Source: Undaria pinnatifida
Taxonomy: Eukaryota; Sar; Phaeophyceae; Laminariales; Alariaceae
DNA length: 64,000 bases
Direction: 5' to 3'
NCBI GenBank assembly: GCA_012845835.1
Contig: JABAKD010000018.1
Span: forward strand, 3,292,229 to 3,356,228
Shown: piece after piece, positions 1-64,000 of the stretch
How the letters are laid out: every line of letters begins with the position of its first letter
Numbering within the stretch: the first letter of the stretch is position 1
The notes under the pieces: model-generated
What the model saw: only the letters and a program-made list of their open reading frames with translations
Databases searched by the model: none
Told to the model about the DNA's origin: nothing
Made by a program: the position numbers and the translations under genes

Positions 1-1109
1 TCGGCGCGCGGTGATTATAGGGACCCAATGCTCGCAAGAGTATCAATTGGAGTCTAGAGGATAGCAGTAGAATATTCTGCAGATACATCTCGCTGTTAGC
101 ATGATGCAGTAATTGCGCGGCAGAAAGAAGTTCCAAGAAATGGGTAGCGAAAAAAATATACTAACATGCTGTGGGTATTGAATACTACCGAAGCCAGCCC
201 GCAGAATGCATCATGCAGCATAGAATCAACCATTCTGGCCACACCAACTAGTTCGAATCAAGACTGCATTTGTCGCCACAACCAGCGATCAGACCGTGTA
301 CTCCAAGAAGAAGCCCACCAGAGCAACCAGTTTGACGGTACATTTAAGAATAACGAGCATATCTGTGATGTAATCCGTGACAACGGAGCTTGTCTTGAAC
401 AGCACACACGTGTACAGCCCTCCATCGAACTCACAGAAGATGCCAGCTCGCGTTTGTTGGTGCTATTATCGTCATCAACGAACTCAATCATGTAGCGACA
501 GGCTCCAACCATCGATTATTATAAAATACAATATGGTCTCACACGGCAGTACGGCTCAACCGTACGAAGTTGCTGTTGTCCTCGTCATCGCAATACAAAT
601 CGGGACAGACAGGTTCCAACCACTGCCTGCCGCCACAAATGTTTTTTTAGTAGAATTATTCACAGTCCTAACTCATCACGGCCAGATATCATACCTGGTA
701 GTAGACAGTCGTATCCATGGTGTGACACGAGTATAGGCGACATATATGTGCACATAGCTTGTAAATATGAAGATCGATGAAATCCTCAATCTCACACCTG
801 GAGTGTGTTTGATTTTTTTGATAGTATGTATCACCTCGCAAGCATCGACCAGTTGACCAGCCCCACTCCCACCTCAGGTACAAGTGTAGTTGGATTAAAT
901 AAAAGCATTTCAAAACAAACCAGCACCCTCTTTCGTTGTTCTGGACACAGATATCAAGGGACGGCACTTTTACCACTTGACCGGCGGCAAAATTCCAATA
1001 GTTGACCTTGATTGACGCCGAACTACTAGGGTTAAATTTGACCGATAGTGTTCACACCCGTGACCGCTGGGACGTTCCCGTTGACTGCCCGTCTCAGGAC
1101 ATAGTACTG
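1..1109. other. Unit 1 leader, no gene seen
   Basis: No convincing coding sequence. Short open frames exist on both strands, but they are not better preserved between units than the DNA around them. The stretch holds a degenerate direct duplication: 448-513 resembles 567-630, and both end in a GACAGGYTCCAACCA motif. It also holds a sentence-like segment at about 750-830 (ATCGATGAAATCCTCAATCT and following bases) that has a second copy in unit 4 only. Confidence 0.5.
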
Positions 1110-1436
1110 CTAAAAGGCCCCCTGGACAGAAATATGTTTATTGTTTATTACTCTTGCATCTTTGCCATCTCTAACCGCGCCCCTCCACGTACACCACACA
1201 CACCGCTTCAGAGACGCGGCCAGGTAATCCCGTCGCCCAAGGTCCCGGTCGCGGGAATAATCCCGCAAGTTGAGATCCAGCTTTCTCGTCCACAGGGTCC
1301 TCTTCGCCTCCGAGTTGACTGCGCGCACATGCGGAGTCAAATACTTGGCTTGGCTGGCGAATCCAGGGACTACCTCGTGCCCGCCTACAATATCAGCAAG
1401 AGCTCCTGCCGCTTGCGCCCGGCGTGTCCTTGATAG
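1110..1436 (-). pseudogene. Coding-like relic, copy A, unit 1 (nonsense)
   Basis: A minus-strand frame that reads like protein, containing the short strings HEVVPGFASQAKYLTPH, KLDLNLRDY and RCVWCTW. In units 1 and 2 an in-frame TAG at 1437-1439 (plus strand CTA) replaces the AAG lysine codon found in units 3 and 4, closing the frame upstream. No ATG precedes it. A diverged relative lies 14.5 kb further on in the same unit at about 15791-15960, with the shared strings GALAD and HEVVP. That makes it more likely an old duplicated exon or element fragment than a chance ORF. I do not recognise the family. The alternative is that the DNA repeat is non-coding and open by chance. Confidence 0.4.
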
Positions 1437-1900
1437 CTAGCACGCGACGAGCCGTAACCGGGAGTGGTCCGGGGTTGCTCGTTCACGTTGTTTTACGACA
1501 CTCTTCTTCGACCCATATTCCCGACACAGACGTGCCTCATTCTCTCCACAAAACAACATAAACATTACCTTGTCTGTTACGTTGTTATTTTATGTGCGCA
1601 GACAAAGCTATCCTATAGCATTTGGAACATAGACCCTTTGTCAACTTGGCCATATCCTGCGACGTGTAGTATGCATTTGGTGTATTTGAGGCAGAACTCG
1701 AATGTCAGCGCAAACACAGGTTTCGCTCAACGTCCTGGCGCATACAACACCGGTGGGTAACATGCATTCGGCGCGGCGTCGGGAATCGGTCCTACACGGA
1801 CAAGCAAGGTGTTGGTGATGATAAATGTTGAAGCTGGTATCAGCGCGTCGTCGTTTGTCATACTAAGGGGGGCAAGAAAAGTCCAGGCGAACGAGTGAAG

Positions 1901-1965
1901 CCTCCCCTCCCTCCTTGGTACAAGGGGGGGATTGGGGGGGGGAGGGGGGGTTCCTCAGGGCGGGA
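1901..1965. repeat. C-rich/G-rich foldback, unit 1
   Basis: A C-rich arm (1901-1914) runs into CCTTGGTACAAGG and then three G-runs of 7-9 bases at 1924-1950, followed by GGGCGGG at 1958-1964. The plus strand could form a hairpin, and the G-runs satisfy a G-quadruplex pattern. The minus strand could form an i-motif. The element sits at the same place in all four units with run lengths that vary. No gene function can be assigned. Confidence 0.7.
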
Positions 1966-2406
1966 GTTCTTCCCCCTTGTGAGAAGGAAAGGGATCTTTA
2001 TGAACGTCCCTAAGCTGCTTTCCGCAAGACTCCGTGTGTTGGTAATCCGCGGACAGGCCAGGTTGGCGAATGTATCAGAATAAATAAAGGATGCGAGCTG
2101 CTTTTCGCACATTTTCGTATGTCGATCTTTCACTAAGGCAGCGCGGAGAGACAGGGACTTACACGTTACTGCATTTTTGTTTATGAGGCACATCGCTCGT
2201 CTTTGTCGGAGGCCCCCTCATGATCATGGGAAATTTGAACAAGACAACAAAAAAATTCAATATCCGCGTTCCTCATTTACTTTTCCCAAATCAATGGCAT
2301 TCATGTTTTATAGCTGAACGCCTTGTTTGATGCACTCGTTCGAACAACTGTTGATACGTGCCAAGTATACCGGGACAGTCGATCTACACCCCCGCTTCCG
2401 AACGCT

Positions 2407-2575
2407 AAATACGACGAGAAAAGAAACAAGTGCACCAACAAAGACATTGAGAAAACGAGAAATCCAAATATCGAGAAAAACATCGGAACGGACAACCGAA
2501 CGAAAGCTAAACGAAAACAAGAAACAAAAGAAACAAAAGAGACGAAAAAACGAACTCTGCTTGAAAACGCACGCT
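2407..2575. other. A-rich, T-poor asymmetric tract
   Basis: About 170 bp of the plus strand is dominated by A with G and C and almost free of T (for example GAAACAAAAGAAACAAAAG). It recurs at 23934-24102, 43376-43544 and, with more changes, 63571-63730. On the minus strand it is a pyrimidine-rich tract about 430-600 nt beyond the stop of the 484-codon ORF. It could lie in a 3' untranslated region or be a simple-sequence relic. Both strands are open here by composition only. Confidence 0.5.
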
Positions 2576-2579
2576 GCTC

Positions 2580-3004
2580 CCTGTGATCCTCGGACATGCC
2601 CTTACCGACAACTCATACCCCTTGCGATCACCGGCTTGGTTTTCGGCGGCACCTTGACCGGATGTCGTCTAAACATTATCGCCATACCGCATCCTTTTAC
2701 TTTAGCTGCGCGTAAACAGCAAGACAAACAGTGGATGTCTTTAAAGCACCAAACCTCAGTCGTCATACTTAGAAGCAAACAAGCTTCACGATAATGAGCT
2801 ACAAAGTCAGCGGTGGATATCTTCGAATGGCCACCCCCGCTGTACATCATCACAAACAAACCAGAGAGTCATAGACCTTCCTTTAACAGCAAAACCATTA
2901 GCTACATTTAACAGGTCCGTTTCCGCCAGTCCATTCTAGTAATGAAAGCAGGTAGAGTAGCTAAACACCACATTCAGTCATACAGGCGGTTTAGTTGGCG
3001 ACAT
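2580..3004. other. Downstream flank of the ORF, no gene seen
   Basis: A 425-bp stretch between the A-rich tract and the stop codon of the minus-strand ORF. It is almost identical in units 1, 2 and 3 (24107-24531, 43549-43973). Short frames on both strands are not distinctive. This would be the 3' flank or 3' UTR of the ORF if it is transcribed. I see no AATAAA on the minus strand close to the stop. Confidence 0.4.
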
Positions 3005-4459
3005 TTAGCCTACGCAGAAAAAGCGAAACCAGATAGCGATTCTTGAGCAGCAGCAGGAAAACCACTTTGTTACGGCTAACGTCCAATCTGCTCCATCTGT
3101 TTCCGTCTTTACAAACTCCTCTTCCTCCCGGTCCTTCCGAAAGCCCAAAGCAGGCGGGCACACGGAGTCCGAGGCGGGGGAACCCACCACGGAAACTTCT
3201 CGCAACCTCACCGTGTCCAACTCAAAGAACCGCCCTTGGTCCAACGCCCCCGTCCCGGTGGGGTGCTCGTCGCTTTCGTCACAACCGCCCGGGTAAGCGG
3301 AGCTGTCATCCTTCTCCTCAGCGTCCGACATCGTCCCAAAGCTCAAACTGTTCGCCACACCGCCCTCTACGACGGCGTCCGACTTCAAGGTTTCTTGGAC
3401 GAGGGGGCACACCGACTCCTGGGCGAGGTGTAACACGGGGTCCAGTTGAGGGAAGCCTTGGTTCGAGCCCCTCCAGGAGGAAGTGTCATCTTCCCCCGCA
3501 TTTGAGTCGGTGAGAGTAGTAGAGAGGTCCGTTACCGGACGCTCAACTGGATCGAATGCCGGCCACCAATTTTTGTTCGGCTCCCCCGAAGGGTTGGCCG
3601 TGTCGTGGGTTGTTGCGTCTGACTCGGTCCACATTGTCGAGCTATCCGTTTCTGACGACGAGCCTGCCGGATCTAATGCCGCATGCTTTTGGTCCGAACC
3701 CTCCGCGGTAGTCGTGTCCTTATCCCCTTCTTTTGAGACGTTGTAGTTGATCGACGTTGTCTGCGTTTCCGGGGGCGTCCACACCGGATCCAATTCCGGG
3801 CACCAGATTTTCTCCGACCCCCCTGAGAAGTCGCCCGTACCGTGAATCGCTACGCCTGAATCCCAGCAGTGGCTCGAGCTTCCTCCCTGCGCGTCCGAAC
3901 CGGTCCAATCGGTCGAGCTGTTCAACCCTGTCCAGTCGATGGAGTCGCTTCCTGTCGAGATGGGATTCCACGCCCAACGGTCGGGGCCAGGGGAGTGCCC
4001 GGGGTCCGACACCACCGAAGACACGGCCTCCGACGCCGTGGAGGTGGAGGATGCGGGGTTGCTGTCGTCAATGTCCGGCAAGGTTGTGTCATGCGTGCGC
4101 CACGCGGGCTTCGAATCGGTCGAGGGGGAAGAGGTGGGATTCATGTCCGAAAGGTCCAACGATATGGTGCCCTCGACATTCCCCGTGACAAGGTCGCGGC
4201 ACAGAACGGGGTCAGACTCTAACGGGGTCGACGAGTTCCCAATGTCCTGGGGGGCCGTGCATGTGCTGCCGGCTTTCCACGTGGCAATAACAGAGCAGTC
4301 TGACTCCGGCCATGTGGTAGAGGCTTCTTGAAGGGGTTTGTCCAAAACGCGAGAGATGGCCGCTTCGACCATTTCCATCCTGGCAGCATCGTCTTTCTCC
4401 TGCCAAGGCCAACAGGTGGGGATAACAGAGGGAGAGTAAACCAGCGAGGGAGGGAACAT
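3005..4459 (-). CDS. 484-aa Ser/Thr/Asp/Trp-rich repeat protein, unit 1
   Basis: The one convincing gene of the unit. An intact ATG-to-TAA frame of 484 codons lies in a GC-rich island, while the flanks are visibly more AT-rich. Codon third positions look G/C-rich. Residues 1-45 are mixed and partly helical (AARMEMVEAAISRVLD). Residues 47-345 hold degenerate repeats of 35-45 residues. Their pattern is S-T-x-W-T-x-S-D-A, then an SG-rich spacer, then W-x-P-x-L/F-D-P-V (clear at 182-227, 273-308 and 313-345). Residues 378-450 are acidic with an EEEE run. The last 20 residues are Cys-rich and hydrophobic (WFSCCCSRIAIWF), possibly a membrane tail. A GTAACA just before that tail could be a splice donor, in which case the tail would be intronic. 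There is no signal peptide and no known domain. The function is unknown. Confidence 0.7.
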   Translation of the reverse strand: MFPPSLVYSPSVIPTCWPWQEKDDAARMEMVEAAISRVLDKPLQEASTTWPESDCSVIATWKAGSTCTAPQDIGNSSTPLESDPVLCRDLVTGNVEGTISLDLSDMNPTSSPSTDSKPAWRTHDTTLPDIDDSNPASSTSTASEAVSSVVSDPGHSPGPDRWAWNPISTGSDSIDWTGLNSSTDWTGSDAQGGSSSHCWDSGVAIHGTGDFSGGSEKIWCPELDPVWTPPETQTTSINYNVSKEGDKDTTTAEGSDQKHAALDPAGSSSETDSSTMWTESDATTHDTANPSGEPNKNWWPAFDPVERPVTDLSTTLTDSNAGEDDTSSWRGSNQGFPQLDPVLHLAQESVCPLVQETLKSDAVVEGGVANSLSFGTMSDAEEKDDSSAYPGGCDESDEHPTGTGALDQGRFFELDTVRLREVSVVGSPASDSVCPPALGFRKDREEEEFVKTETDGADWTLAVTKWFSCCCSRIAIWFRFFCVG

Positions 4460-7400
4460 GCGAGGGAGCGATTTATGATCCTGATTGATTGGTATGTGTG
4501 AAGCAACTGGTTCGTTGTATTACGCGGGGTCATGCGACCAAACGAAAAACCCATACCACTCTCTCAAGAAGGTCTGAACGAATATGTCAGGAGTGAGACG
4601 ACAAAGAACACAGAAGCATCTTTAACGTTTTTCGTTAATTCTTGTTGATGTTAGGGCACCCCTCATCATGTCTAGGTAAACAATGTCCAGTGGGGTGTGA
4701 ACAGTTCGGCTTTGGACTTGCGTCTGGACCGCTCCTATATTTGTCGTAGTAAAGTAGCAAGCGGGTGACGGGCGCGCGAGGTTAGGCGGTTGATTGATTT
4801 ATATTTTTTTGTCCTTGAACGGTTTAGCTGTCTTGCACAACTGTTGGCGTACTTTTCGTGGTAGTCGTTACAGAAACGGCGCGAAGGAGTAAGCTATAAG
4901 ACTGGCGTGTTGAGCCACCGAACACCGGGAACAAGAAATATCAAGCGCCTTCGCGTGCTATGTACCACAGGCGTAAAGCACAGTTATAAACACCCCAATG
5001 TATGGCATTACATTGCTCGTCGAGTTGCGGGTGTATTGGTTTGACCTGTTAAGCCGTGAACGGATGCCCTTGTTAACTGTAACAAAGGAACTACGCGATA
5101 CTGTTAGAGTACCACTCGTGTGTCACATCGTCATTCGGTAGGCATGATATTATTCATCGAGCTGCACGTTGCTTTTCCCCATCGCCAAGGTTTGAGTGGG
5201 GTAGAGGTCCCAAAGTCTGGAGCCTGACAAAAACGCTGTGCACTCCTGACGTAGCATGTCTCTACTGGGACAGGCAAATATGACATAGAGAGCGAGAGAG
5301 AGAACTAGTACCGTATACGGGGTATAACATAGTATCACATGCCCTACCTTGTGCACTACACCCACACCGACGGTAAGCTATTCAAACATTAAGAATATAC
5401 AGCTCACTTTATCGCCCGGGGTACGATGTATAGACTTGCAACATTCTTCATGTTCTACCTCCCAGGAGCATATCTCGCGCTGGATAACAACTATACATTG
5501 CTGGAAGGAGGGAGTGCGTACTGTGTCACCCGGGGTACATTTTTTAGCAGCATTACACACGCTACCTGCAATACTACCGCCGTAGATTATACCACCCGTG
5601 AGATAACAATTTTGTAAATACTAATGATCAGTCACTGTACATCATCCGGAATGTCACTTCCCCTATTTTGTGCGGTTTAAGCTAAACATTTGGTATACCC
5701 TCTACATGCCCACCCCGTGACATGCTTATCAAGGCCGTCTCACCTTTCCTATGGTATTAATTTTTGCTTTCGCGAAAAGTATCACATACCACATGCAGGT
5801 AGTTTTGGAATGGTGACAACAAGCCGATCTACTTGGTATTCCCCAGAATATGGTCTTGAGCCGGATGGTCGTATAAAGGGCACTCACTACCGGAACTAAA
5901 TAAGGGTCCGGAGAAGGCACAGCTGTCGTGCTGTTTACTCAATTTTTTCGCACAACATGGTATAGGCGCAGGGTCCAGAACAGCACAAACGCGGTGGCTA
6001 CTCTCGGCAGTGACTTTGAGCTGGTGAACACCCAGGCCCCATAAGTTGCCCCCATTAGGTAACTTTGATCATGAGTGATTCGGTATGGTCGAGGTTTTAC
6101 GTTTCGTTTGTCCCCATGTGCTTCCGGACAAACACGTGCATACAGGTCGACCAAGGAATGGGTTAGGGTGTTAAGATTTGAGCTATTGTTTAGCGTTCTA
6201 TCCAAAGCCCCATCCCGTTGTACGGGAACCCCACGCCGTACACACGAAATGAAAGTTTCCAAGCTGTACAATATCATGACGCGTGCTATGATAGAAGTGC
6301 ACCACTTCATTCTTGAGGTTTCTCATTTTGGGAGCTTAAGACCTCTCCCAAAAACTGATGTTGATAAAAATAAAAGTGCACGTGACTAATACAGGTATAT
6401 TTACATGCCTCGCAACAGCGTGGCAAACGGTCAGTACCGTAACCCTTTGGTGACTTCAGGGGGGGGGAAATGTATGGCATGCAAATCGATATTTACTACA
6501 GGAGGACATAACACGACTCAAAAGAGGGTTGAAGTCATCCCACGCAATAGAAAGGGTGCAGCAGAAGTTTCTAAGCTCCTATTATTACCATTGTGAGGTG
6601 CTCAATATCTCAGCCGGAACATGGCTTTGAAGACATTCGCTAGCGCAACTCGAACAGCTTTTGTTTCCGATAGATAGTCCTACACAGCGACATCATCACA
6701 CAAACCGATGGTCCTACACATGAGGAGCTTAACCAGTCCTGATCGTTTGGGCCAATCATTGCAATCCCTACCGTGGGATGAATCATTGATAGACTGTACT
6801 AGGTGGACATGTTTAATAATGCGATGTCAGTACTATCCGGTACATTTTGCGGTGAAGCGTGATGCCCACGCAGCATAGCCCCATGCGTTCGGCTGCGACA
6901 TCACACCACACGGATAAGGAGAAGGCGGAACTTTGTTGTTCGTCGTGTTCATCACTAATCTTCGTTGTTATGCCAAACATACGCGGATGCTATTCCGACC
7001 GTGTTTGCTGATCTCCGTGTTATCGGCAGTCGTTCTTATGCCATGGGGATAATTGATCACGCGCACATACTTTCCGTTGTACCACATAAAACAATAACTA
7101 TATAAAAGTGCTATCAAGGCAGCACTTTTTTATCGTCTAGCTCATCGCTTAGAATCATTCTGCGGTGCGTGCATAAAACGTAACGTGTACGAATGACGAT
7201 ACAGCATCGTCTGCACGGAGCAGCAGAGAGAAGATCCTATTAATAGGTTAGTGGGTAACCAAGGGTGCGTTCAATGAGGTCACACTTAGCGGCTCGGGTC
7301 GGTATCATAGAACAAATGCTTTTCATATTGCTGTTTTTACAACCATGGACAACCGTCTACCGTTTCATACGTATAGTGTTTCACACATACGACTCTATTT

Positions 7401-8897
7401 TTCGCAGCAGACAGACCCATGGCCGGTATGATTTGCACGACCTATCATGTTGACGGGGGGACGCGATATGATCTGAAAAAATATATACCAGGTAGTATTT
7501 GCTTGATTTCGAATGCTGTACTTCTCAGATCCTGCGAAAGATACCGTGACGACAAGCAAAATATCTAGATGGTCAAGATCCTGATATGTTGGAGGTGTGA
7601 AAAATTCGGTTTCACTGCCACAGGACAAGAACAATTGCGTCGATTTTTGAATTAGGTACAGACGCCACGACAACTGAAAAAGCAAATACGTCCACCTTTG
7701 AATAAATGACGGGACGACTCCCCGCGCGGTTCGTAGTCCAAATTGGGGTGTTCTACCAATAATATCTTGCCATGGCCGGGTGACGCCTAAAATGGCCGAC
7801 TACAAAGCAAGAGGATGCGCTGCACATTCGTATACAATGGCCGGACCAGTTTAGTGTGTTCTACGTTTGCACGATTGTGATACGAAGGAACTTCATTCTT
7901 TGTTTCGTCCCTAAACATATGGTTCGAAATGGGTTGCTAGCGCTCGTCAAAGTTTACGTACTGCGGGTGTACGAGTGTCAGTTTATTCTCTCACTCTGGA
8001 AGAACAGCAGCAAGGGTCTATCATGGCGAAACCCGGGGCAAGCTTTTACATACACAATCGGTATTATACCGTACGTACTGGCAGAAACATGATGTAATAC
8101 AGTAGTGCCGGGAATAGGAAGGTAGTACATACCAGTATACCGGTAGAAGTTTTGGGGAATCGACATGAACAGGAAGCGGAGTGGGATAGGGCGTTGACGA
8201 AAAGAAACAATGTAGAATGTTCGACCAGGCTAAGCTATCCACGCGAGTCTGCCACATTGGTTCACGTACACGAAAGCCGGTGTATACTCGCAGACGAGCT
8301 GATGGAGCAAAGGAGGACCATACAATGAAGAATGTGGAGCAAGGGTGGATAAACGTGCTAGCGACAAGTTTCAACAAACAGGCGGAGGCGAACAAGGTAA
8401 TACCGACCGAAATTGAAGCCAAGTGACGCGAAGAAACGCGAAAGCACGCAACACCTCTTTTTACGCGCCAACTTAATGCGGTACACATTACCAAACCGGC
8501 AACAGCGGAACGCGAAGGGGAAAAAAACATGCCGGTGACAGCAGTCCAAGAAGACGGCGCCAGAGCAAACCTAACCAACCAAGGCAAAACCAGGGGCAAA
8601 ACAAAAGCACTTTTGTTCACGCCATCAAACCAGGCACGGCCTAATTTTTTTGCGAAAGGGGTATATACCGCGCACACGATCAATGGAGGAGGCTCCGTCC
8701 CTAGTCCACCTTGCCCCTAGGCTGGAGTAGCGCAACTCCAGTACCCGTTACAGAATGTACCGGCTGGGCTACGTATGCCCTACAACAGCTGGGCTCCACC
8801 CGAGCCCAGACTGGCGCAATAATGGAACATCAGGTCAACTAAGGTATATTTGAAATCAGGATACGGGATTGTTTTCGCAGCTACGGTGTCGCGTATG
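4460..8897. other. Unit 1, 4.4 kb with no convincing gene
   Basis: The part next to the ORF (4460-4620) would hold its promoter on the minus strand. I see no clear TATA box there. Beyond it I find only short frames. A GA-rich microsatellite lies at about 5287-5305. A degenerate direct duplication of about 60 bp starts at CGCCCGGGGTAC (5413) and again at CACCCGGGGTAC (5529). A G9 run lies at about 6459. The frame at 5426-5617 (63 codons) is kept in units 2 and 3 but is too short and too unremarkable to call. Confidence 0.45.
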
Positions 8898-8927
8898 TCA
8901 ATGATGTAGACGCGATGCCTCTCTCAC

Positions 8928-9202
8928 CTTCGCGACTTCCGTCTCGTTGACGGCCACGTCGCTACCCACCGCCAGGTCGTACACGCACATTTTCATGTAA
9001 GGCACTAGTGACAACTCGAACTTCGAACAACCGCAATCACTTCCGTCCGAAAGAACAAGCTGTTTAAATAACGTCGGCACTGGGTGCTGCTGACGACAAT
9101 CGTGGTACTCGAGTACTCGTAGCGAGCAGAAGTATACAAAGTAGCGGCGAGAAGTAGCGAGAGAGGGGCAGAGGATGTCGGCGGTAGACAGAGAGGTCTC
9201 GT
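8928..9202 (-). CDS. Possible internal exon, unit 1
   Basis: The minus strand is open from 9221 to 8898 (107 codons) with no ATG at its front. It is bounded by good splice-like signals. Upstream is a pyrimidine tract (TTTCCCTTCGCTTCGAG) ending in AG at 9203-9204. Downstream the sequence GCGAAG is followed by GTGAGAG, with the GT at 8926-8927, in phase 0. The encoded text includes DGSDCGCSKFELSL and CVYDLAVGSDVAVNE. I do not recognise it. The neighbouring exons could not be found, and substitutions between units (K to R, D to G, H to Y) are mostly amino-acid changing. The exon call is therefore speculative. Confidence 0.25.
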
Positions 9203-9221
9203 CTCGAAGCGAAGGGAAATA

Positions 9222-11536: not shown

Positions 11537-11545
11537 CTAGGGTAA

Positions 11546-11580
11546 GGTGGCCGCCCGCCGTCGGCGGCGGGACGGCCACC
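11546..11580 (-). other. 3'-terminal hairpin of the Helitron-like element
   Basis: The arms GGTGGCCGCCCGCCG (11546-11560) and CGGCGGGACGGCCACC (11565-11580) pair over 15 bp with a single unpaired A at 11572 and the loop TCGG. On the element's strand it lies just before TTACCCTAG. In Helitrons such a hairpin marks the end of rolling-circle transfer. Confidence 0.75.
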
Positions 11581-12278
11581 CGGAGATACGCCCGAAGAAG
11601 GTCAATCAATGAATTGAGGATGAGAAGTGCGGGAAATAGAGAGGAGGATGCAGGTTATGTCTATTAAAGGAGGAAGTGGCATCGATGATACATCCCCGCG
11701 ACTTTGGGCATGACTGAATTGAAACGCGGTGGCCGTATCAGGGGCGATGAATGTGTAATCAGTATAATTTTAGATGAAATATCAATGGAAAGTACGCAGG
11801 ATGGGCAGGCGGATGAATGACTCGGAAAGAGACATCGGTGACGCCGCACTGTTGTTTATGTAACGGAGTAAGTGTAATAGCTCCGTGATAAAAATCAATG
11901 GTGAAGAGAGCAAGATGACGGTGAACCCGGTGAAGAAGAAAGCGACGAAGATGATACGGTGATTAATTCGAACACATAATCGAAATCGTGAATGAAAGAA
12001 TCGGAAAAGCCCCGAAGATGGAAGGGCAAAAAGCAGCAAATCTCGATTGCTATGCTACAGCGAAAGAAAGCGAAAAAAACATGAAAAGGTCGACCTGGAA
12101 ATAATTACGTAGTGTACACGAAACGTGTGATAGCTTACGAACTCGTTGTAAGTGAAACGACTGAGACGCTGATAGCAGATGACAAACTTCAGGTGAAAAT
12201 GAGCCGGAAGAAAGTTGATGGCTAAAGAAGACGATCATCTACGGTATGTGAAACAGAAGCTTAGGTGCGTCGGTAGAA

Positions 12279-29587: not shown

Positions 29588-29591
29588 GTAC

Positions 29592-51744: not shown

Positions 51745-51748
51745 GAGG

Positions 51749-52092
51749 TGTTATAAGGCTTAGCTTGGGTGAGCTATTGGTTAACCAGTTGCAAGTGTTC
51801 AAACGGACTAATACCCCACTAAAACTTTAACAAATGGCGTCGTCGACAGACCATGGGTTTTTGGGTCGTGGGTTCGATCCCCACCATCCACAATAATAAA
51901 CTTTTCAGATTTTCCCCATGTCGAACTTGAAAAATACTCTCCCTGGTATCCCCAGGGAATGTAATTGCTTGAATATTGACAGAGGCCCGCCGTTTCAGGG
52001 GGAGAGAGTGTTATAAGGCTTAGCTTGGGTAAGCTATTGGTTAACCAGTTGCAAGTGGTCAAACGGACTAATACCCCGCTAATACCTTAACA
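51749..52092 (+). mobile_element. TRIM-like miniature retroelement with tRNA-like core, 344 bp, unit 3 only
   Basis: Units 1 and 2 have an intact GGGAGGCATAT. In unit 3 GAGG (51745-51748) is repeated after the insertion (52093-52096), a 4-bp target duplication. Two 84-bp direct terminal repeats (51749-51832 and 52009-52092) start TGTTATAAGG and end TTAACA, and differ at five positions. TGGCGTCGTCGAC begins two bases after the left repeat, as a primer-binding site would. A purine tract AGGGGGAGAGAG (51997-52008) abuts the right repeat, as a polypurine tract would. The 176-bp interior has no gag or pol. It carries a tRNA-like stretch with a perfect B-box. This is the architecture of a terminal-repeat retrotransposon in miniature. 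Confidence 0.75.
51835..51894 (+). other. tRNA-like segment (A/B-box) in the TRIM-like element
   Basis: From TGGCGTCGTCGACAGACCA the order of bases resembles the D-arm of a tRNA (12 of 19 positions match a eukaryotic tRNA-Lys as I remember it). After a shortened anticodon region comes GGGTC, then GTGGG-TTCGATC-CCCAC, a perfect T-arm of 5-bp stem and 7-base loop that contains the B-box GGTTCGATCC. It is too short for a functional tRNA and has no paired acceptor stem. It could act as an internal Pol III promoter, or be a relic of a SINE or of a tRNA captured at priming. Confidence 0.55.
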
Positions 52093-52096
52093 GAGG

Positions 52097-55000
52097 CATA
52101 TGACTATACTTCGCACCGTAGTATTACCGCATTATTAATGCAAACGTTTTGATTGGACATCCATTGCCGTTATCGTTGACTGCAAATACCTCTGACTTCA
52201 GACGTTCGAATTCCAATGTGTGGCGAATCGATACGCTGTACATTCAATTATCCGTGCTTGAGTTGTTCGTGAGGTCCGATCGGTACAAGCATGTTTTCTT
52301 GCCGTACAAGGCTTAACGCTACTCGACTCCAATTAACAGCTCCGGCGAAAACAAATGTGCTTTGCCACAGATGCGTCACTACTCGTTCGGGTACCGACAT
52401 GAATGTTAGCCTTCTATCATAGAACATTATCGATCAACGCACGGGCAGGCCTATCACCCGCGCTTAACTAATCCATGCCATGCGAACAGTGCTCGTACTT
52501 ACCGTTTTCCCGCACGACTCTATTCCATACAGCACATTGTCTACGTTGTATCCACACTTGTCCAAGCATACAAATTCCATTCTTATCCACTCCTCTTTCC
52601 ACTCGCTTTGCAGGTTGGGGGGTCAACATATGGCTGATCGGGGCCTGAAGATGTATTCATCATATATGCTCAACATCCAACTGCCATGCGAACAGGACCT
52701 GTCCCCACCGCCGTTCCCTGTATACCATTGCTGATACGATGCATCTCCCCGTGTCTACCAATTATCGCGTTTCTGTTTTCGTTTAAATCATACTCTACTG
52801 CTAGGTGGTTACCCATTGTATCCACATCACTCAGTCGTACTGACGACTAAAAAACCTGAAAGCATTAAAGTAAATGTATTTTCCTTTACTGCGATGTTTG
52901 ACAGAATACGGTCGTGAACAACGACTACCGAACTAAAGTAAAATAATAGGGGGGGTCGACATTCACTTCGAGTACCGCCGGACGATAGAGGACGGTATCT
53001 TTCCCACTGCACGCTGCGTGCTATCTTGCCCACCATACCCTAAGTGGCCCACCTCCCTTGGTATTGCCCACGGCACCCTGTGCGCGGGTAAGGGTTTGGG
53101 AAAGAGGGAGTTAAGCACAAAGGTGGCACCATAAGTCCCCCTCATGGTTACGGAAACCAACTCACAGGAACGAAATCAGAGCACCCCTCGTACCTCCAAT
53201 CATGATGACACCAGGGAGAGGTGTATACATCACAAACAGAATCCATCAGAACACTGTTATCTCACCACGGATTGGCATCGGAGAGCCTTTTGCATACTAA
53301 ACGATAGAATCATTGCACACTAGACTATATACGCGACGCGCATGCAGAAGAGCGCGGCTTATACACGATAACTTGTGCGCGATTGCCGGTTTTAGAGAAG
53401 CATGAGGATGGACTTAAGAACACCGCTCAAAGGCATATGTCGGATGTGTGTGGTTTGCACTCCCCAGTATAGCACGAGACATCATCCGCAGAGAACTGAG
53501 TGCAAAAAATCGAACGCCGTTTTTCGCGGGTATGTTTGGAGGTCGTTGTCCGTTAATATGGCGTTAGTGAAGAACGCGCCCTCCTCAAAATACGAAAGCC
53601 AGTCTGGGTTGTTGTTTTTGTTCCATACTGGCTGTCCTGTGGTGTACGGAAGGGACGTTCGTCTTGCGCACCCCGTTGTGACAGACGAGTGCGTTCAGCA
53701 CCACCTGAAGATAGAAAGTAAGACGGCATTTGGCACACGATATGACGGCTGTAGAGCCACTACACCAAACGATAGCGGCACAGCCCGCCTTCCATAAAGG
53801 TCAAACATGGCAGAGAGCGCCTCGAACACCAAATGATTGGGGGGTGGTTGGTCAAGACAAATGCAAGGATGGACTCGGGATGTCGCTGAACGAACACATA
53901 TATCAACTAAACACGTTTTTCATAGGCACCACGTCTGGAGCATTGGGAGTCTTGAATACCATACAATCGTGGCATATATTCTTTGCGCGCAACATCATCG
54001 GATATGTACGCCTGTTTCTGTAGTTGTATTGAAGCTAAGTACCTAGTATGGGTGAACGCGTACTGACGTTTGCGTGAAAGGATAACGGGAGAATATGAAC
54101 GCGCTGGCAATACAACGCATATTCACAGCCACACACAGGCTGCGCCAAAGTAGGTAAAACAATGTAGAGAGCCAGAATGGTGAGAAGGTTGGCCAATGGA
54201 AGGAAACAATGAGCGAAGGTAGGAATACGAAAAAAAAAGTTGTGTGCTTTGTTACGAGGACCGATTGAGTAGACGTTTCGATTCTGTGGTCGACGAGTTG
54301 ATATTGATTGCAGCAGAATGACAATGGTTAGTGTATCACGTCAGTGGCAATACAACGTGGGTACAGGGCAGGGAGGTGCTGGCAGACGGATTCAATACGC
54401 GAACTCAACGTGCGCCAATACTAGTGTGGGTCAGCAGCTGCTAACTCAGGTATTCGCGACTTAACGACCGCCTTTCTTTAGGGACTCCGACCGTAGTAAC
54501 GTGATTCCGTGTACCAAAGACATTATCAATGTATTTCATAATGATGCAATGTTTGGGCTGGTGACCCAACGCCGCGGCAGGGGGATTACGTTTTGAGCCC
54601 CCTTCTTAAGTGTCTCGGTGCCACTCGCACACATTGCCCTCCTGTTCCTGTGCGGTGGAGAGCATTCGTGCTGTTATTTTTCGCGATACGAATCAACAAC
54701 GAAATATTGCTACGTCACGCAAAATACATGGTCTAGTTAACCCTTTCATGTTCGGTACAGTGTCACTCGTGCGAGTGACGCAACATCGGCAGTGAAGAAG
54801 GGGGTACTTCCTCCTACCGCAGCTATCTCCAGATGCATGGCGAACGATATCACGGACGGGGGTTGTCGCCGTTGGGAGTCGTGGTGTTCACGTCCAAACG
54901 TCGTGAGGTGCATGATCTTACCGTTTCGAGTGCACTATTGATGTATGGAGTAAAAACCTATTGGTTGTTCATCTTTCCAAATGAGTCGTCATTATCGTTT

Positions 55001-58000
55001 GCTGGGTAGCGGCGGGGAGATGTTAACCCCCGTGGCTAGATACACCCATCCCAGCTTACAGCAATGTCCTATGAATCTCGCCCGTTCATATACCACTTGC
55101 CTTTATGTCACTAGGATGATACCAGTCGGTTTCCTAACTATCGCCTCCTGCAGTCATCTCAAGTGACCAAGCCTCGGAATGGTACCGTACCATTGGAGTC
55201 TTAGAACCTTGCTAAAAGGTAACATAAAACAATACGAATTATGCATAATCATATCTTAATGCGCGAAATACCGGCTACATGAACCGTCCCCTCTCCCCCC
55301 CGCCCACCCTTACCCCATCATTCAAAAGAGATGGTAGGGGCGATCGGGAGGAGGACATAAAGACCTGACTCGGCTTGCCAATCCAGGGACTACCTCATGC
55401 CTATCCATGTTATCAGCAAGGGCCCCAACCGGCTTGCACTCCTGGCTAGCTTCTACACGACGAGCTGCACCCGAGACTAGTCCTGGCGTGCTCACTCACC
55501 TTTTCACACAATACCCTACGACCCCGATTCTCGACTTTGTCTGTTACTTTGTAATCTTACGTTTGTGGACAAAGCACTACTTTATTATTTCTGTTTTGAA
55601 TTGCGTTGTAATTGTTATTGTCTAGGGTGTGAAAGAGACGTCTTCCTTTAATTTCATACACCCATCGCTGCCTCCTGCGTCCTCCTTTTTATCTGGCCCA
55701 CAAATATACAGATTTTCCCTCTCCCCAAAATTATACCGGCCAGCATCCTAACTTTTGCCGCCTACTGTCGTCTCGGGTGACCAAGCCTTCGCATGGTACC
55801 GTATTATTTGACGCCTCCAGCTCCGTGGTAGTCTGAGGCTACCGTTGTCGTACATTACTGATCATTTTCTACCTGGGCTGTACGTTCCCCCAGTTGTCAA
55901 TCCGCCCCTAGGCTTGCCCCATCTACCTTACGCGACACCCTTATCGAACCTTTTGCGATACTCTTGTGCATGCACGCTTTGTACGCGATGAATCGCCAAC
56001 GCCCTTCTTTATTAATCATTCGATTCGAAATGCCTCCTCCGGCCGGTGAACGTGGTCGCTCCCATGATGTGCAAAAAGAGCAGGGTGAACGTATCGCGAT
56101 TACGAACTGACTTTGCCACTAAACTCCAACTTTTTGCTATGAGCACAATCGTACGACACCGCTCTTCAAGAATTTCTACAACATACGGGCAGAGGGGGGA
56201 GTGGTTGGCAAAACCATAGAAGCATGACACCAACTGTACCATGCAGGCGACAGTACCACCGTCGTCCTTAATGGACTACCTCGCACCGCGAACCTCGTTT
56301 GGTGTCTCTACTCGGTCGTCTACAACCTGCGTCCGGCCGTCATTGTATCCCTCAGAATTATCGTGTATAGTATCGGTCTATGGACACGGGATGTACACCA
56401 ACTGTGTTCTGGTGGCGTGAAACAGACGCGGCCCCACTTTGTATGACTTGCATGCACGGGTTGCGCCACCTCCGAGTTGCCGGCAAACGTCTCGTCCGAC
56501 GTTGCCGTCACACGATAACTGAAAAACAAAACCCAGCCACAACACATTCACTTCCAGATCCCATGGTGGGAAGAGATGTCCCCCCACCCATGGAAAGCAT
56601 GCCGAGCAAGACCGGCAGGCGAGCGCGGCGGGGAGTTCCCACCGTCACGTGTTAGGTGGGATCGTAGATACGCACGACCACACGCCCACACGTGCACACA
56701 AACACTCCTTTCCCCCAACAAATGCTACCATAGGGGTGTCCTCGTTTCACTCAAACCTACTCCTGACGTGAGAAACTCAACAACTGACCCAACCACAAAC
56801 ACAAACACATATCACAGAATGAAGTTTTAACCTGATGAACAATGCCTTTAGCTAGGTATGCCGCGGGTTGGGTTGTAAAGTAAGAACGTGATAAGACGAT
56901 AATGGGTTAAGGAGCGTCGTCATTCAACCAAACCAGCCCCAAATGCAAGATTGCTACCTCCATCAATGCCTAGGCCTTGCGGCTATTAAAATCGCGCAAC
57001 TTCAACTCTCTCGGTAACCCATCCACCTACGAAATTTACTACAAGATAGCCAAGACCTGGCTCTGAGGTACCCCTAGTCGAGCGCCCAACTGAAGTTGTT
57101 GTCCGCGCCGCTCCATCTCTCCTCGGCCGCTGCTCGAACAGCACCTTTAGGTTGCAGGTCGGCTTGTTGTTGCAGTCTGAACCGGCAGCGACCTATTGTT
57201 TGCCCTGCAGATCAGTCAACAACGCCCCGTCTTGCGAATAGGTCGGTTGGTCGCGTTCCTCGCCTTTTAACGAAACCACCACCGTTTTGTAAGCGCAGTT
57301 GCCGCATCCTTTATCCGTTCAATCGTTCGAGCTGCCCCACACCCGGACGTCGTCCTCGGGCTCCATCTGGCTGCGCTTTCCTTCAACTGACTGTTGTTGC
57401 TGACATCTCTTCGCACGAATGGATGCGTGTCCGAGGGAATCAGGCGAGCCAAGGCGGGGCCCGCGGGGGGGGGGGGCGAGTACCCCGTTCCGAGGGTGAT
57501 GAAGGGGGGCCCTGTTTCCCCACACGCTCCCTTAGCGTTGATGGTGACGTGTTCTTCACACGAGCGACCAATGCGAAACATGGGGAAGATTTGAACAAAT
57601 AGTAAAATAACTGGTAAAGCGGCGTAGTAGTATCATGCTCCCACTCGTACAACGAAGACGTGTGCTATTGTGATGGCTACCCCCAGACTGGTGCCGCCCT
57701 GTCCTTAAAGTGCTTATCAGAGGGGTCGAACAAGACCGATACACTGCGTGTCCCGACAAGATTATATCTCGCCGCACAACACTGATTCGGGAAACATTTT
57801 GTGCATCAGGAACGTTTATCACGAGGCACTAGGTACGATAAGCTTTGCTTCACAATTTCCCGTATCAGCAAGCCTCTTCGCTTGCGTTGCCTTCCTCTGT
57901 ACTTGGATCTACACGAGGGCACTGTCTCTTTCAGGTCAATGTAGACGAGCGCACCCACGTAACTCGTGTCACTCGCCACATTTAAGATGGCAGGGGCTTG

Positions 58001-59745
58001 AACAGCCCAATCGCTCCAAACTTGAGAGAAAACAGGCGATGTCTTTAGGGTGTAGCCTTCGCTAAGCCTGAACACTGGCCTATCTCTGCGTCGATGACGA
58101 ACAGCGCAACTGCGCACTTTCAATTGTGAACGAGGTAACACTTTCCAGCCACTGCGGTGCGCTCGAGATCCGTCGTTCATGTGGAAACAAAAGGATATTT
58201 CGTCCTGCGTTTTCTCTCGTACGATTTCCGTCATCACACCCAATAATATACTTGTTCGTGGGAGCAGTATTTAAGATAATTAAGGGATACTCGACCATCG
58301 AGGACTCGCGCCCCTGCGACTTCGCGGCAAGGTATATCTGCATTGGCCTTACAACCACCAACGTTGTTTACAGCTGGTGGCACGATTCAACCAGCACACA
58401 GCAGGAAAGAGGATGTACGTTGTACTTGCGTCTGTCTGTCGTGTTTCATTTTCGTGCTTCTGTCGTTGAGCAAAGCTACCCCCATTTTCAATACCGGGTT
58501 GTCGCCACTCGCACGACAATAACTGGGGAGACGTTTTGGCGCAACGTTACTCACCATTCCTACTCGCGAATTCATATAGCAAAATTTGAACGGCACGAAC
58601 CATCTAGCTCGTAAAGGAACTGAGGGATCGCTCACGCGTCTGACCCCGAGCCACTGTCAATAAAAAAGCACCACACGTGACCCCCTTCTCTAGCCTTGGT
58701 CCGATACACATGCTCCCAACAGGATGGGCCCAAAGCAACGAAATAGAAATATGCACGTGTGTCTCCTTCTCGTTTGTTTCTTCTCCAAGAGGGAAAGTCG
58801 AGGCAGAACAAGGTCACTCCGCTCCTGACCGGCTCCGTTTGCTGTCACTTCGATGTGACGGCTGCCCCGGTTGCGATTAATACGCGATGGTTGGTCGCTG
58901 GCGGTACGATACAGCCGTCGCGTGGCCGGAAACGTAATGGTACCTACTGTATTCGTATCATAGATCAGACGACACCAGGATGTTTAGACTAAATATTTAC
59001 ACTATCTGCCTCGACGATCACATATGTACTACAGCAGTGAAATGTTTGTTTGATCGACTGGCGTCCAAACAATACGGCAGAGTGGCTCCACCCTCGAGTG
59101 TTTACGCCAGTCGTGACTCCACCGTGGCGGCCTCGGATGTTACTCCACAAGGGGCGATTTTCGCTGGGTACCCCGGCCGCGTCCCTCTCCACGTCAACGT
59201 AAGACCGATGATGACGGTGCGTTTATATATCGAGCAGTCTGTCCAAAGGAATACATATAATCAGCTACGTGGCATGGTGGATACGAGGCCGGCGCGACAA
59301 TGCCGTGCCTTTCACACTCGTACCGCCTTCTCTTGAAATTGCTAATTGTATCGCGAGCTATCCTGTCCAAATTGTGGGCATATGGAGGGAACCACGCGCG
59401 CAATCTATTCGGCGTGAATGGCTTGTGTCTCGGGGGAAGCAGATCACTTACCACAATAAATACTGATTGCGGGATTAAATATGTAGCATCATGAGCCATC
59501 ACGCTAGCTCCTTCTCGCATTGGGCTCCAGTCGCTTCGCACGGGTTATGGACGATGCGTGGTCATGCAATGCACCCACCCACCCACCCACCGCAGGTGCT
59601 TGGCTCCTCTCAGTCACAAGCAGAGCGAAAACTCACACATATAAATATTGTCATGAAATTAAACCAAGGGGGAAGGCAGCTAAATCTTGAACGGCAAGGG
59701 CATCGACGTCACAGCATGAGCCTGGGCCACCCCACCCAGGAAATT
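52097..59745. other. Unit 3, remaining body
   Basis: Equivalent of 10736-20615 of unit 1 without the Helitron. It includes the internal duplication (about 55010-55830), relic copy B and a single copy of the 389-bp segment. A short (CCCA)n tract at 59573-59592 is expanded relative to units 1 and 2. Frames such as 57096-57602 (plus, 168 codons) do not persist in the other units. No RNA genes were seen. Confidence 0.4.
55332..55500 (-). pseudogene. Coding-like relic, copy B, unit 3 (frame broken)
   Basis: The DNA matches copy B of units 1 and 2. About 11 bases are missing near 55352 (GAGGAGGACATAAAG, where unit 1 has a longer stretch), which destroys the frame. This shows the segment tolerates frameshifts. 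Confidence 0.35.
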
Positions 59746-59755
59746 GGATGTGCCA

Positions 59756-60590
59756 TGCTTACCTGCATCAGCGACCCTATAGTCTATGCAATGTAGGTTC
59801 TGTTAATCGACCTGTGAGGGCGACTCCACGCTCACGTGCTCGCCGCGACTCTATAGCGGTGACCCCCTCTAGCTGCGTGGCATAACCATTGCGCACCAGT
59901 GAATTCTCGCACGACAATAAGTCGTAGACAACATTGCAGCAGGCAGCTAGGTCACGGACGTATGTCAGCGTATGTCCCTACCTGCATCGTTGATCATACA
60001 GTGTAATGCACTGTAGGTTCTGTCTGTCACTTGAATATGGGGACGACTCCACCCTCACTTCCTCGCTGCGACTCCAGAGCGGCGACCCTCGCCGGCGGCG
60101 TGGTATTCCATTTTGCGCCCGGCATTCAACGTACGACTACGAGTTGTAGACAATCTTTCAACAGGTATCTCGGTAGTCGAGGTAGATACAGAGTTGATCC
60201 CTACCTGCATCAACGATCATATAGTGTGATGCAAATTAGGTTCTGTCATGTGACCTGTGAGGGCGATTCCACCGTCACGCGCTCGCTGCGACTCCACTGC
60301 AGCCATTCTCCCTGGCAGCGTAATATAGCCATTGCGCGCCGGTCATTGCTCGTACGACTAAGTTCGCTGTTCGTGTCCTAGCTGTATGAATTATGTATGT
60401 AGAAACACAGAAAATACCTTTCTGTATTCGTGATTCAATTATGTCTAGGTTCCGTCATGTGAAGCACGACTACACACTCACGCAATGGCCGGGACTCCAC
60501 AGCGGCGAATATGGCTGGCGGAATGAAGCTGCCATCCCGCGCCCGGCACTATCCGTACGACATACATTCGCACTAAATATTCCAATTAAA
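59756..60590. repeat. Four-copy 220-bp tandem repeat, end of unit 3
   Basis: The same array before the unit 3/4 boundary. Landmarks lie at 59795, 60015, 60238 and 60447, spaced 220, 223 and 209 bp. The GTGAGGG...CCCTCAC hairpin is partly degraded in several copies here (for example CCGTCAC in copy 3). Confidence 0.8.
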
Positions 60591-61160
60591 TAAGGCAGAA
60601 TAATAGACAACGAAATTACAGCAGATATATGTCGCTAACGAGGTCGGCGCGCAGTAACTATAGGGACCCAATGTTCGCAAGAGTATCAATTGGAGTCAAG
60701 AGGATAGCAGTAGCATATTCTGCAGATACAGCTCGCTGGTAGCATGATGCAGTAATTGCGCGGCAGAAAGGAATCCCAGGAAATGGAAAGCGTAAATACT
60801 AGACTAACCTGCTGTGGATTTCGAATACTAACGAGGCCAGCTCGCAGAATGCATCATGCAGCATTGAATAAACCATTCTGGCCACACCAACAAATTCGAA
60901 TCAAGAGCGCATTTGTCGCCACAACCAGCCATCAAACCATGTTCTTTGGGAGGAAGCCCACCAAAGCAATCAGTCTGACGGTACATTTAAGATAACGAGC
61001 ACATCTGTGATGTTATCCGTGACAACAGCGTTTGTCTTAAATAGCACACACGTGTACCCCCCTTGATTGAACTCACAGCAGTTTTCAGCTCGCGTTCGTT
61101 GCTGTTAATATCATCATCAACGAACTCAACCAAGCAGCGACAGGCTCCAACCATCGATTA

Positions 61161-61705
61161 AAATAATGTATAGTTTCCAGGCACATTTTGAGCTGCCCCC
61201 CCCGCCCCTCCCCCCCCCCCCCCCCGCCCCAACCCCCCCCCCCCCGCCCCCAATAATATACTGGTGCCAAAACCGTCAGATTCATCCCCTCGAAAGGATT
61301 TAAAGCTTACATGCACAAACTGCCCCCTTCCCCCCCCCCCCCCCTCTCCAAACCCGCTCGCTTTTGATCAAACCCAGGCCCCCACGTCCTTCGAAACTCC
61401 GCCCCACCCCCCTCACCGGTTATTCGACTTACAAGATTCACTTGATAAAAGGATACATTTCCATCCACAGCTGTCAGATTTTGTCCCCCTCAGAAACGGG
61501 TTTTATAGTTTCCGCGCACAGACTGACTAAAATCATCCTGTTGACCCTGATAGCTACACTGTAGTTGTAAGGGGAGTCGCCGACCTATATCCTTAATGAG
61601 GACACACAACTCGTAATGCGCGCGATCGGAGTATCACACACAGCTTGCAAAGATGAGTTTCGACGAAATCTTCGATCTCACAGCTGGAGTGTATTTTCAT
61701 TTTTT
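61161..61705. mobile_element. Insertion of about 545 bp with poly-C tracts, unit 4 only
   Basis: Units 1-3 run directly from CAACCATCGATTA to an AT-rich TAAAATA and GTCTCACAC. In unit 4 these are about 545 bp apart. The added sequence has C-runs interrupted by single G, T or A at 61196-61250 and a run of 14 Cs at 61331-61344. It ends with a 65-bp segment (61643-61710) similar to the unit's own sequence 300 bp downstream (61943-62008). No terminal repeats, target duplication or ORF of note were found, so its nature is open. It could be an insertion, or an ancestral segment deleted from units 1-3. Confidence 0.5.
61196..61250 (-). other. Poly-C tract, potential G-quadruplex on the minus strand
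   Basis: Fifty-five bases that are almost only C on the plus strand, with runs of about 8 to 15 Cs. The minus strand has more than enough G-runs for a quadruplex. A second C-rich run lies at 61323-61344. Long homopolymers are also prone to sequencing-length error. Confidence 0.7.
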
Positions 61706-62320
61706 ATAATAATAAATATTGTCTCACACAGCAGTACGGTTCAACCGATCGAAGTTGCTGTTGCCCTCGTCATCGCAATACAAGTCGGGATAGACAGGTT
61801 CCAACCACTGCCTACCAACCAACACTTTTTTCTAGCAGGAGTATTCACAGTCCCAACTCATGACGGCCAGATATCATACCTGGTAGTAGACTATCGTATC
61901 CATGGTGTGACACGAGTATAGCCGACATATATGTGCACATAGCTTGTAAAAATACGAATCGATGAAATCCTCAATCTCACACCTGGAGTGTGTTTGATTT
62001 TTATGATAGTATGTATAACCTCGCAAGCATCGGCCAGTTAATCAGCCCCACTCCCACCTCAGGCAGTTGAAAACAAAATACATTTCAAAACCAACCAGCA
62101 TTCTCTTCCGTTGCTCTGGACACAGATATCAAGAGACCGCACTTTCACCACTTGACCGGCGGCAAAATTCCAATAGTTGACCTTGATTGACGTCAGACTA
62201 CTAGGGTTAAATTTGACCGCTAGTGCTAACACCCTTGACCGCTGGGACGTTCCCGTTGACTGCCCGTCTCGGGACATATTACTGCTGAAAGGGTCCCTGG
62301 ACAGAAATATATTTACTGTT

Positions 62321-62632
62321 TTATAACTCTTGCATCTTCGCGAACTCTAACCGCGCCCCCCACGTACACCACACACACCGCTCCGGAGACGCGGCTAGGT
62401 AATCCCGTCGCCCGAGCTCCCGGTCGCGGCAATAATCCCGCAAGTTGACATCCAGCTTTCTCGTCCACGGGGTCCTCTTCGCGTCCGAGTTGACCGCGTG
62501 CACATGCGGAGTCAAATACTTGGCTTGGCGGGCGAATCCAGGGACTACCTCGTGCCCGCCCACGATACCAGCAAGACCCCCTACCGCTTTCGATCGGCGT
62601 GCTCTTGATAGCTTGCACACGACGAGCCGCAA
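62321..62632 (-). pseudogene. Coding-like relic, copy A, unit 4 (frameshift)
   Basis: The frame is open from an ATG-type start at 62632 and keeps the strings KLDVNLRDY and RCVWCTWG. A one-base loss in a C-run at about 62355-62361 then shifts it, so the end reads differently from units 1-3. The lysine codon that is TAG in units 1 and 2 is intact here. Taken together, two units carry a nonsense change, one a frameshift and one is open. That is what neutral decay looks like. Confidence 0.4.
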
Positions 62633-62639
62633 CCGGGAA

Positions 62640-63076
62640 TGGTCCGGGGTTGCTCTTTTGCGTTGTTTTGCACTCTTCTACGACCCAGATTCACGACTCA
62701 GTCGTGCCTCATTCTCTCCACAAAACACCATAAACATCACCTTGTCTGTTACGTTGTATTTTTGTTTCGTGCGCAGACAAAGCTATCCTACAGCATCTAC
62801 AACATAGACCCCTGTTGTCAACTTGGCCATATCCTGCGACATGTAGTTTGCATGTGTTGTATTTGAGGCGGAACTCGAGCGTCAGCGCACGCACAGGTTG
62901 CGCTCAACGTGCTGGCGCATAAAACACCGGTGGGTACATGCATTCCGCGCGACTTCGGGAATCGGTCCTACGCGGACAAGCAAGGTGTTGGTGATGATAA
63001 ATGTTGAAGCTGGTATCAGCGCGTCGTCGTTTGTCATACTAAGGGGGGCAAGAAACGTCCAGGCAAACAGATGAAG
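62640..63076. other. Unit 4 stretch with no gene
   Basis: Equivalent of 1440-1900 of unit 1. Short frames only. The sequence is more diverged from unit 1 than unit 2 is, but collinear with it. Confidence 0.4.
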
Positions 63077-63138
63077 CCCCCCCCCCCTCCTTGGTACAAG
63101 GGGGGGAGTGTGGGGGGGGGGGGTTCCTCAGGGCGGGA
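63077..63138. repeat. C-rich/G-rich foldback, unit 4
   Basis: Same position in unit 4. Here the C arm is an uninterrupted run at 63077-63087, and the last G-run has lengthened to about 12. Arm lengths change but the CCTTGGTACAAGG centre and the pairing potential remain. Confidence 0.7.
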
Positions 63139-64000
63139 GTTCTTCCCCTTTGTGAGAAAGGAATGGGATCTTGATGAACGGCCCTAAGCTGCTTCCCGCA
63201 AGACTCCGTGTGTTGGTAATCCGCGGACAGGCAAGGTTACGAATGTAATAAAAAAAAGGATGTGAGCCGCTTTTCGCACATTTTCGTTGGTCGATCTTTC
63301 GCTGAGGCACCGCGGAGAGACAGGGACTTACACGTTACTGCATTTTTGTTCAGCAGGCCCATCGTCCATCATTGGTGGAGGCCCCCTCATGATCATGGGG
63401 AATTTAACAAGACAACGGAAAATTTCAATATCCGCCTTCTCATTCAGTTTTCCATCTGAATGGGAATTATGATTTATAACTGAACGCCTTGTTTGATGCA
63501 CTCGTTCGAACAACTGTTGATACGTCCGAGATAAGCCGGGGCAGTCCATCTACACCGCCCACCCAAAAGCTAAATACGACGAGAAAAGGAACAAATGAAC
63601 CAACAAAGACATTGAGAAAACGAACAATCCAAATATTGAAAATTTATGGGAACAAATAACGGAAGAAAGCGGAACAAACACAAGAACCAAAAGAACCAAA
63701 AGGAAAAAGAAAAACGAATTTTGCACGAACAAGCATATATTGGACGAGATTTTACCCACGTCGCTCCCCGTGCTCCTCGGGTATGCCCCTCCCAACAACT
63801 CATCCCCCCTGCGATCACCGGCTAAGTTTTCGACGGCACCTTGACCGGATGTCGTCTAAAGATCATGTTGCTATACCGCATCCTTTTATTTTAGCTGCGG
63901 ATAAGCAGGAAGACAAGCAGTGATGTCTTTAAAACACCAAAGCAAACGAGGTTCACGAAAATGAACTACAAAGTCAGCGATGGATATCTTGCTAACGGCC
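63139..64000. other. Unit 4 end, no gene within the window
   Basis: Equivalent of 1966-2820 of unit 1, including the A-rich tract (about 63571-63730). By analogy the 484-codon ORF should follow a few hundred bases beyond the window end. That is inference only. Confidence 0.4.

Follow-up and report, generated by a model that had tools for sequence, protein, structure and literature searches.

A probable young tandem gene array of ~20-kb units, partly homogenised over the gene, in the kelp Undaria pinnatifida

The 64,000-nucleotide stretch of Undaria pinnatifida DNA analysed here (the window, C24:3292229-3356228) consists throughout of large collinear direct repeats, each complete one carrying a long open reading frame (ORF) on the minus strand, and the question that it raises is whether this is a macrosatellite, as an original prediction proposed by likening it to D4Z4 and DXZ4, or an array of duplicated genes. 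Self-BLAST and MAFFT alignment bear out the three complete units and the cut fourth that had been described as filling the window (Table 1). The locus is very probably a real, bounded and young local tandem gene array, produced by segmental duplication and partial homogenisation. A segment of ~20 kb, containing one two-exon gene with a long intron together with old transposon remnants, would have been copied head to tail through unequal exchange; further exchange or gene conversion would later have homogenised the copies partially over the gene, and the array would be decaying at its edges. At a guess, the array would provide extra dosage of a weakly constrained gene.

The genome searched comprises 511,146,479 bases in 68 contigs, and counts from the genome searches are lower bounds, 40 candidates being scored per search. 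The window begins 3.29 Mb into a contig of 11.08 Mb and thus lies in the contig interior; it is repeat from end to end, as predicted, but is only part of the array. When 164 kb around the window, which contain no N, were compared, unit homology was found to span ~C24:3256163-3375297 (~119 kb), with both ends visible in the contig. The array includes five near-full units, numbered 0-4, flanked on the left edge by two short decayed units (70-85% identity) and on the right edge by a remnant (72-79% identity); weaker pieces (66-84% identity) occur a little beyond both ends and blur the limits of the array. Units 0-2 are the least diverged from one another, and divergence peaks at the array edges.

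A macrosatellite is a long array of many similar units whose number varies between individuals. Applied to this locus, the term would mean that the tandem repeat is retained for structural or chromatin reasons and that the ORF is incidental, and the arrangement of several-kilobase units head to tail, large, collinear and mostly without coding signal, is what would be expected. However, in this assembly there are about five near-full units rather than many, the array has visible, decayed ends in a contig interior, each unit carries a predicted long-intron gene as well as dispersed repeats, and two relatives of the gene are present outside the array on another contig, C20. A macrosatellite like D4Z4 or DXZ4 is very unlikely. 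The interior contig position would also argue against a subtelomeric site, and the small size of the array against a centromeric one. Six telomere-type motifs were looked for in tandem within the window and not found; its GC content is 49.8%, and its observed/expected CpG ratio of 1.04 indicates no depletion.

Each complete unit contains an intact 484-codon frame (positions 3005-4459, 24532-25986 and 43974-45428), as had been noted, and this frame is longer than any run encountered in random sequence: it extends over 504 codons from stop to stop, as compared with a maximum of 218 in 40 composition-matched random units and a longest stop-free run of 388 codons in 40 random units with local composition. 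The period-3 signal of the frame is 8.2, whereas 10 random units reached no more than 4.7, and the 25 strongest period-3 windows of unit 1 are all located either in the frame or at 12101-12601, within an insertion (insertion A) described below. It should be noted that short exons could escape both this test and that of substitution phase, as the predicted exon 1 did. The proposal of one coding gene per unit stands, but the 484-codon ORF does not appear to be the whole of it. ORF codons 1-20 look like the 3' end of an intron, with a pyrimidine-rich tract followed by a CAG/GAG acceptor in all seven copies aligned at their 5' ends. Some 4.5 kb upstream within the unit, a segment corresponds to the sequence immediately upstream of L020, one of the two C20 copies, and carries a candidate exon 1, an ATG and 22 codons ending in AAG followed by a GTGAG donor, which is present in six of nine copies (units 0-4 and L020) and whose peptide shows 83% identity between unit 1 and L020. 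In L020 the two exons are separated by 287 bp (5965 to 5677). From these alignments, the ORF is predicted to be mostly exon 2 of a two-exon gene of 487 codons.

The genome search recovered nine copies of the coding frame: the array contains seven, and the other two, L019 and L020, are on C20. The array copies are all on the minus strand within ~102 kb, the adjacent, same-orientation arrangement of tandem gene duplicates, and in units 0-3 the predicted coding structure is intact: exon 1 and the splice signals are present, and exon 2 is open. The frame is broken in the other three (copies 3256k and 3266k, and unit 4 near its end). L019 and L020, which lie ~400 kb apart in opposite orientation and are ~80% identical over 2 kb, have open frames that both end in a hydrophobic, membrane-type tail, and the broken 3256k copy likewise continues into such a tail. 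In the aligned copies, units 1, 3 and 4 and 3266k, the frame is shifted close to the C terminus by a length difference of one base; units 0-3 stop shortly after the shift, so that the tail is absent. Because the tail occurs in both C20 copies and in the leftmost array copy, it is probably the ancestral state. It is conceivable, although rather doubtful, that the gene has been remodelled within its own array, breakpoints in the exon generating chimeras and the tail-less branch being amplified as a new soluble form.

The predicted protein is rich in Ser, Asp, Thr and Glu, with approximately 83 acidic and 29 basic residues (counted on a join with exon 1 six bases off), and an AlphaFold model made without an alignment has a mean pLDDT of 37 and a longest helix at residues 456-482; the product would be an acidic, probably disordered protein. 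Pairwise dN/dS values fall between 0.54 and 0.76 in 19 of 21 pairs, the exceptions being units 0/1 (1.02) and units 1/3 (0.18, from only 8 changes). The set excludes unit 2, whose ORF is that of unit 1, and 3256k, because its frame is fragmented; unit 4 was truncated ahead of the point at which its frame breaks, and the 3266k sequence included is that of a broken copy, misaligned at its start. These values indicate weak constraint at best. They would also be expected if the array consisted of decaying, functionless pseudogenes whose frames are open only because the copies are young and homogenised, as would the broken frames in three of the seven array copies and the loss of the hydrophobic tail from the main ones. 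Against this stand the two C20 frames, both open despite ~20% divergence from each other, the retention of exon 1 between the array and one C20 copy and of the acceptor in every copy aligned, and the motif MVEAAISRVLD, which units 0-4 and both C20 copies share without change but which is altered at its first residue in 3266k and at its last in 3256k. An array of pseudogenes is a credible but unlikely explanation, and a tandem array of weakly constrained genes is preferred.

The ORF had also been described as conserved, and its near-identity among units 1, 2 and 3 is real, but it appears mainly to reflect homogenisation of these units rather than constraint. Their main BLAST blocks are 94-99% identical, although in the right part of unit 3 the figure falls to ~87-90%, and to as little as 79% in 250-bp windows; the stretch of unit 4 inside the window is ~87% identical. 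Divergence along the units is a mosaic: the difference between units 1 and 2 is 0-0.3% over the first 5 kb, the near-identity stopping at 5625, then 4% at 6-7 kb, 0.7-1.4% at 7-11 kb and 2.5-5.6% beyond 11 kb, and unit 3 differs from unit 1 by 0-12% in 250-bp windows of the left half and by up to 21% in the right. To the right of 13 kb, the units are ~2.5-28% apart, with the exception of units 0 and 1, which differ by at most 1.1%. Exon 2 of units 1 and 2 is identical DNA. Of the 1162 sites at which units 1 and 3 differ (~6%), only 8 are in the ORF, 5 of them synonymous and all within 138 bp, and the substitution-free run between them (2418-3744, 1326 nt) takes in ~586 bp of 3' flank. Across 2109-2830, in the 3' flank of the ORF, unit 4 is 12-18% different from unit 1. 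Because the flank and the synonymous sites vary no more than the protein does, the identity of the ORF in units 1 and 3 would be better explained by recent local exchange or conversion than by protein constraint.

The comparison of units 0 and 1 is consistent with the same interpretation. There are no substitutions between them at 3745-7464 but dense differences below, and unit 0 is therefore, on the distribution of these differences, a chimera, with a switch at ~3607-3745 within exon 2. Over 2162-3700, unit 0 has 45 variants in common with unit 4 against units 1-3, and 44 of its own. Crossing over or conversion would be the process responsible; a preference for exchange at the gene is only suggested, on the basis of three boundaries. 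Unit 1 also contains an exact 389-bp tandem duplication (18854-19633) of a sequence that is single-copy in units 0, 2 and 3, and this is either a very recent event or an assembly slip.

The possibility that the units are copies produced in assembly, or haplotype copies placed in a row, is raised by the absence or near-absence of divergence between units 0 and 1 (3745-7464) and between units 1 and 2 (to ~5.6 kb), and by the exact 389-bp duplication. For most units this is unlikely because of the 2.5-28% divergence to the right of 13 kb, from which only units 0 and 1 depart, and because insertions B and C, each with a target duplication, are in different units; the region is also free of N. Of the private insertions earlier invoked against an assembly duplication, these two are borne out, but insertion A is shared with unit 0, and the 189-bp difference is a deletion in unit 3, as units 1, 2 and 4 retain the stretch. 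The published Undaria assembly derives from a male gametophyte clone, that is, from the haploid stage (PMC7058681); if the genome searched is that assembly, a haploid source also stands against haplotype copies. An artefact of either kind is highly improbable as an explanation of the array, and the duplicated units are taken to be real.

Several points weigh against the interpretation as a tandem gene array. Units 0 and 1 are close enough for an assembly duplication of that pair, which is thus an exception to the argument from divergence, and the copy number of the array is taken from one assembly. Splicing of the two exons and expression of the gene are predictions, and exon 1 was not found in three of the nine copies (3256k, 3266k and L019, ~4.9 kb upstream being compared for L019). 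The phase of substitutions between units 1 and 3 gives no coding signal above that of shuffles anywhere, the ORF, with its few substitutions, included. Finally, dN/dS ratios of ~0.6-0.75 on a low-complexity protein, together with the value above 1 for units 0/1, are weak evidence of function.

The 484-residue frame has no Pfam match at an E value of 1 or below and matches nothing in PHROGs or NCBIfam, and a six-frame Pfam search of unit 1, with the three plus-strand frames of the unit 4 start, returned 0 families at E 0.5 or below. A PDB sequence search gave no relative (E values of 0.42 and 0.82 only), none was found in viral_contigs, genome_contigs or plasmids, and window positions 1-7900 have no match in phages. 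In the libraries searched, the gene family thus has no match, and orphan genes of this kind are a common finding in lineages that have been little studied. An rRNA or tRNA repeat unit was also considered and rejected, no Rfam family reaching its gathering score and no tRNA gene being found.

The remainder of the units includes transposon-like insertions, of which B and C were classified as LTR-like (long terminal repeat) and TRIM-like (terminal-repeat retrotransposon in miniature) by their hallmarks, and older dispersed repeats. Insertion A is common to units 0 and 1, with 99.1% identity over 2.1 kb including flanks, and relatives of it occur in at least 34 places outside the array (40 of 123 candidates scored), mostly with 95-100% identity. 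Its 154-residue frame has a period-3 signal, a basic N terminus and an acidic Ser/Asp/Glu tail; it has no relative in viral_contigs, and only matches below the cut-off to Nop14 (E 0.46) and PRK01326 (E 0.084) were obtained. The terminal-repeat pattern of insertion C has no match in viral_contigs, and the insertion includes a match to the tmRNA model of 22.3 bits, compared with a gathering score of 47, which is taken as a tRNA-like piece. The old repeat in unit 2 is represented at no fewer than 35 places outside contig C24 among 40 scored of 400 candidates. Of 1431 candidates for the intronic region 26000-29000, 40 were scored, and the matches that these gave outside the array are short dispersed repeats of ~80-260 bp. 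A degenerate tandem repeat of ~220 bp lies near the right end of every unit (~20678-21163, 40317-40865 and 59760-60360), and a stretch with long cytosine runs, at 61160-61701, separates the two segments of unit 4 that have a match in unit 1.

Table 1. Units, predicted gene parts and other features of the array (window positions, except where C24 positions are given)
Feature	Position	Strand	Remarks
Unit 0	C24:3270870-3292228		Directly left of the window
Unit 1	1-21527		21.5 kb; self-BLAST and MAFFT
Unit 2	21528-41157		19.6 kb; self-BLAST and MAFFT
Unit 3	41158-60643		19.5 kb; self-BLAST and MAFFT
Unit 4, start only	60644-64000		Runs past the window to ~C24:3373480
Unit 4, full extent	C24:3352872 to ~3373480		
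Predicted exon 1, unit 1 gene	8928-8996	-	69 nt, 23 codons, then GTGAGAGA
Predicted intron, unit 1 gene	4400-8927	-	~4.5 kb
Predicted exon 2, unit 1 gene	3005-4399	-	464 codons and stop
Predicted exon 1, unit 2 gene	30718-30786	-	
Predicted exon 2, unit 2 gene	24532-25926	-	DNA identical to unit 1
Predicted exon 1, unit 3 gene	49900-49968	-	
Predicted exon 2, unit 3 gene	43974-45368	-	8 substitutions from unit 1, all within 138 bp
Homogenised core	2419-4522		Units 1 and 3 differ only in patch 3744-3881
189-bp stretch	667-855		In units 1, 2 and 4; absent from unit 3
Insertion A	11531-13353	-	Helitron-like, without a Rep/helicase match of its own; 154-aa frame 12279-12743 (-)
Insertion B	29592-29860		LTR-like, 269 bp, TG...CA ends, target duplication GTAC (4 bp); in predicted intron of unit 2
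Insertion C	51749-52092		TRIM-like, 344 bp, two ~84-bp terminal repeats (TG...CA), target duplication GAGG (4 bp)
Old interspersed repeat	35446-37446		Main matches 66-74% identical; within unit 2

Helitrons characteristically insert between A and T, end at the 3' side in a hairpin and CTRR, and begin with TC. Insertion A resembles them in being located between A and T at one site that has an empty counterpart, in its 3' end, a 15-bp hairpin followed by CTAG, and in the T that follows this end at the three insertion sites read; it differs in its 5' end, which is TATATA or similar rather than TC, and in containing no match to Rep or helicase. TRIM elements have short LTRs, a primer-binding site, a polypurine tract and a target duplication. 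Insertion C is similar in its small overall size, its short TG...CA terminal repeats, its 4-bp target duplication and the purine-rich stretch that precedes its second repeat, but differs in its internal tRNA-like piece; no tRNA matched a primer-binding site in it.

The analysis shows how what looks like a 20-kb macrosatellite with a conserved ORF can be accounted for by an ordinary gene array that has a long intron, recent homogenisation and transposon insertions, and the locus offers a family of kelp genes, unmatched in the libraries searched, in which stages of duplication, exchange and decay may be seen side by side. D4Z4 and DXZ4 are similar in having a large tandem unit that carries at most one ORF. 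As published, D4Z4 has 3.3-kb units in numbers from 8 to more than 100, and DXZ4 is an uninterrupted array of 3-kb units, whereas here there are about five units of ~20 kb with decayed edges.

Tandemly arrayed gene duplicates form birth-and-death families subject to unequal crossing over and gene conversion. The present array differs from them in devoting a 20-kb unit, with a predicted 4.5-kb intron and transposon remnants, to one small coding sequence, and in encoding a protein with no match in the libraries searched, but it has their head-to-tail one-gene copies, mosaic divergence, a chimeric copy, decayed edges and dispersed relatives.

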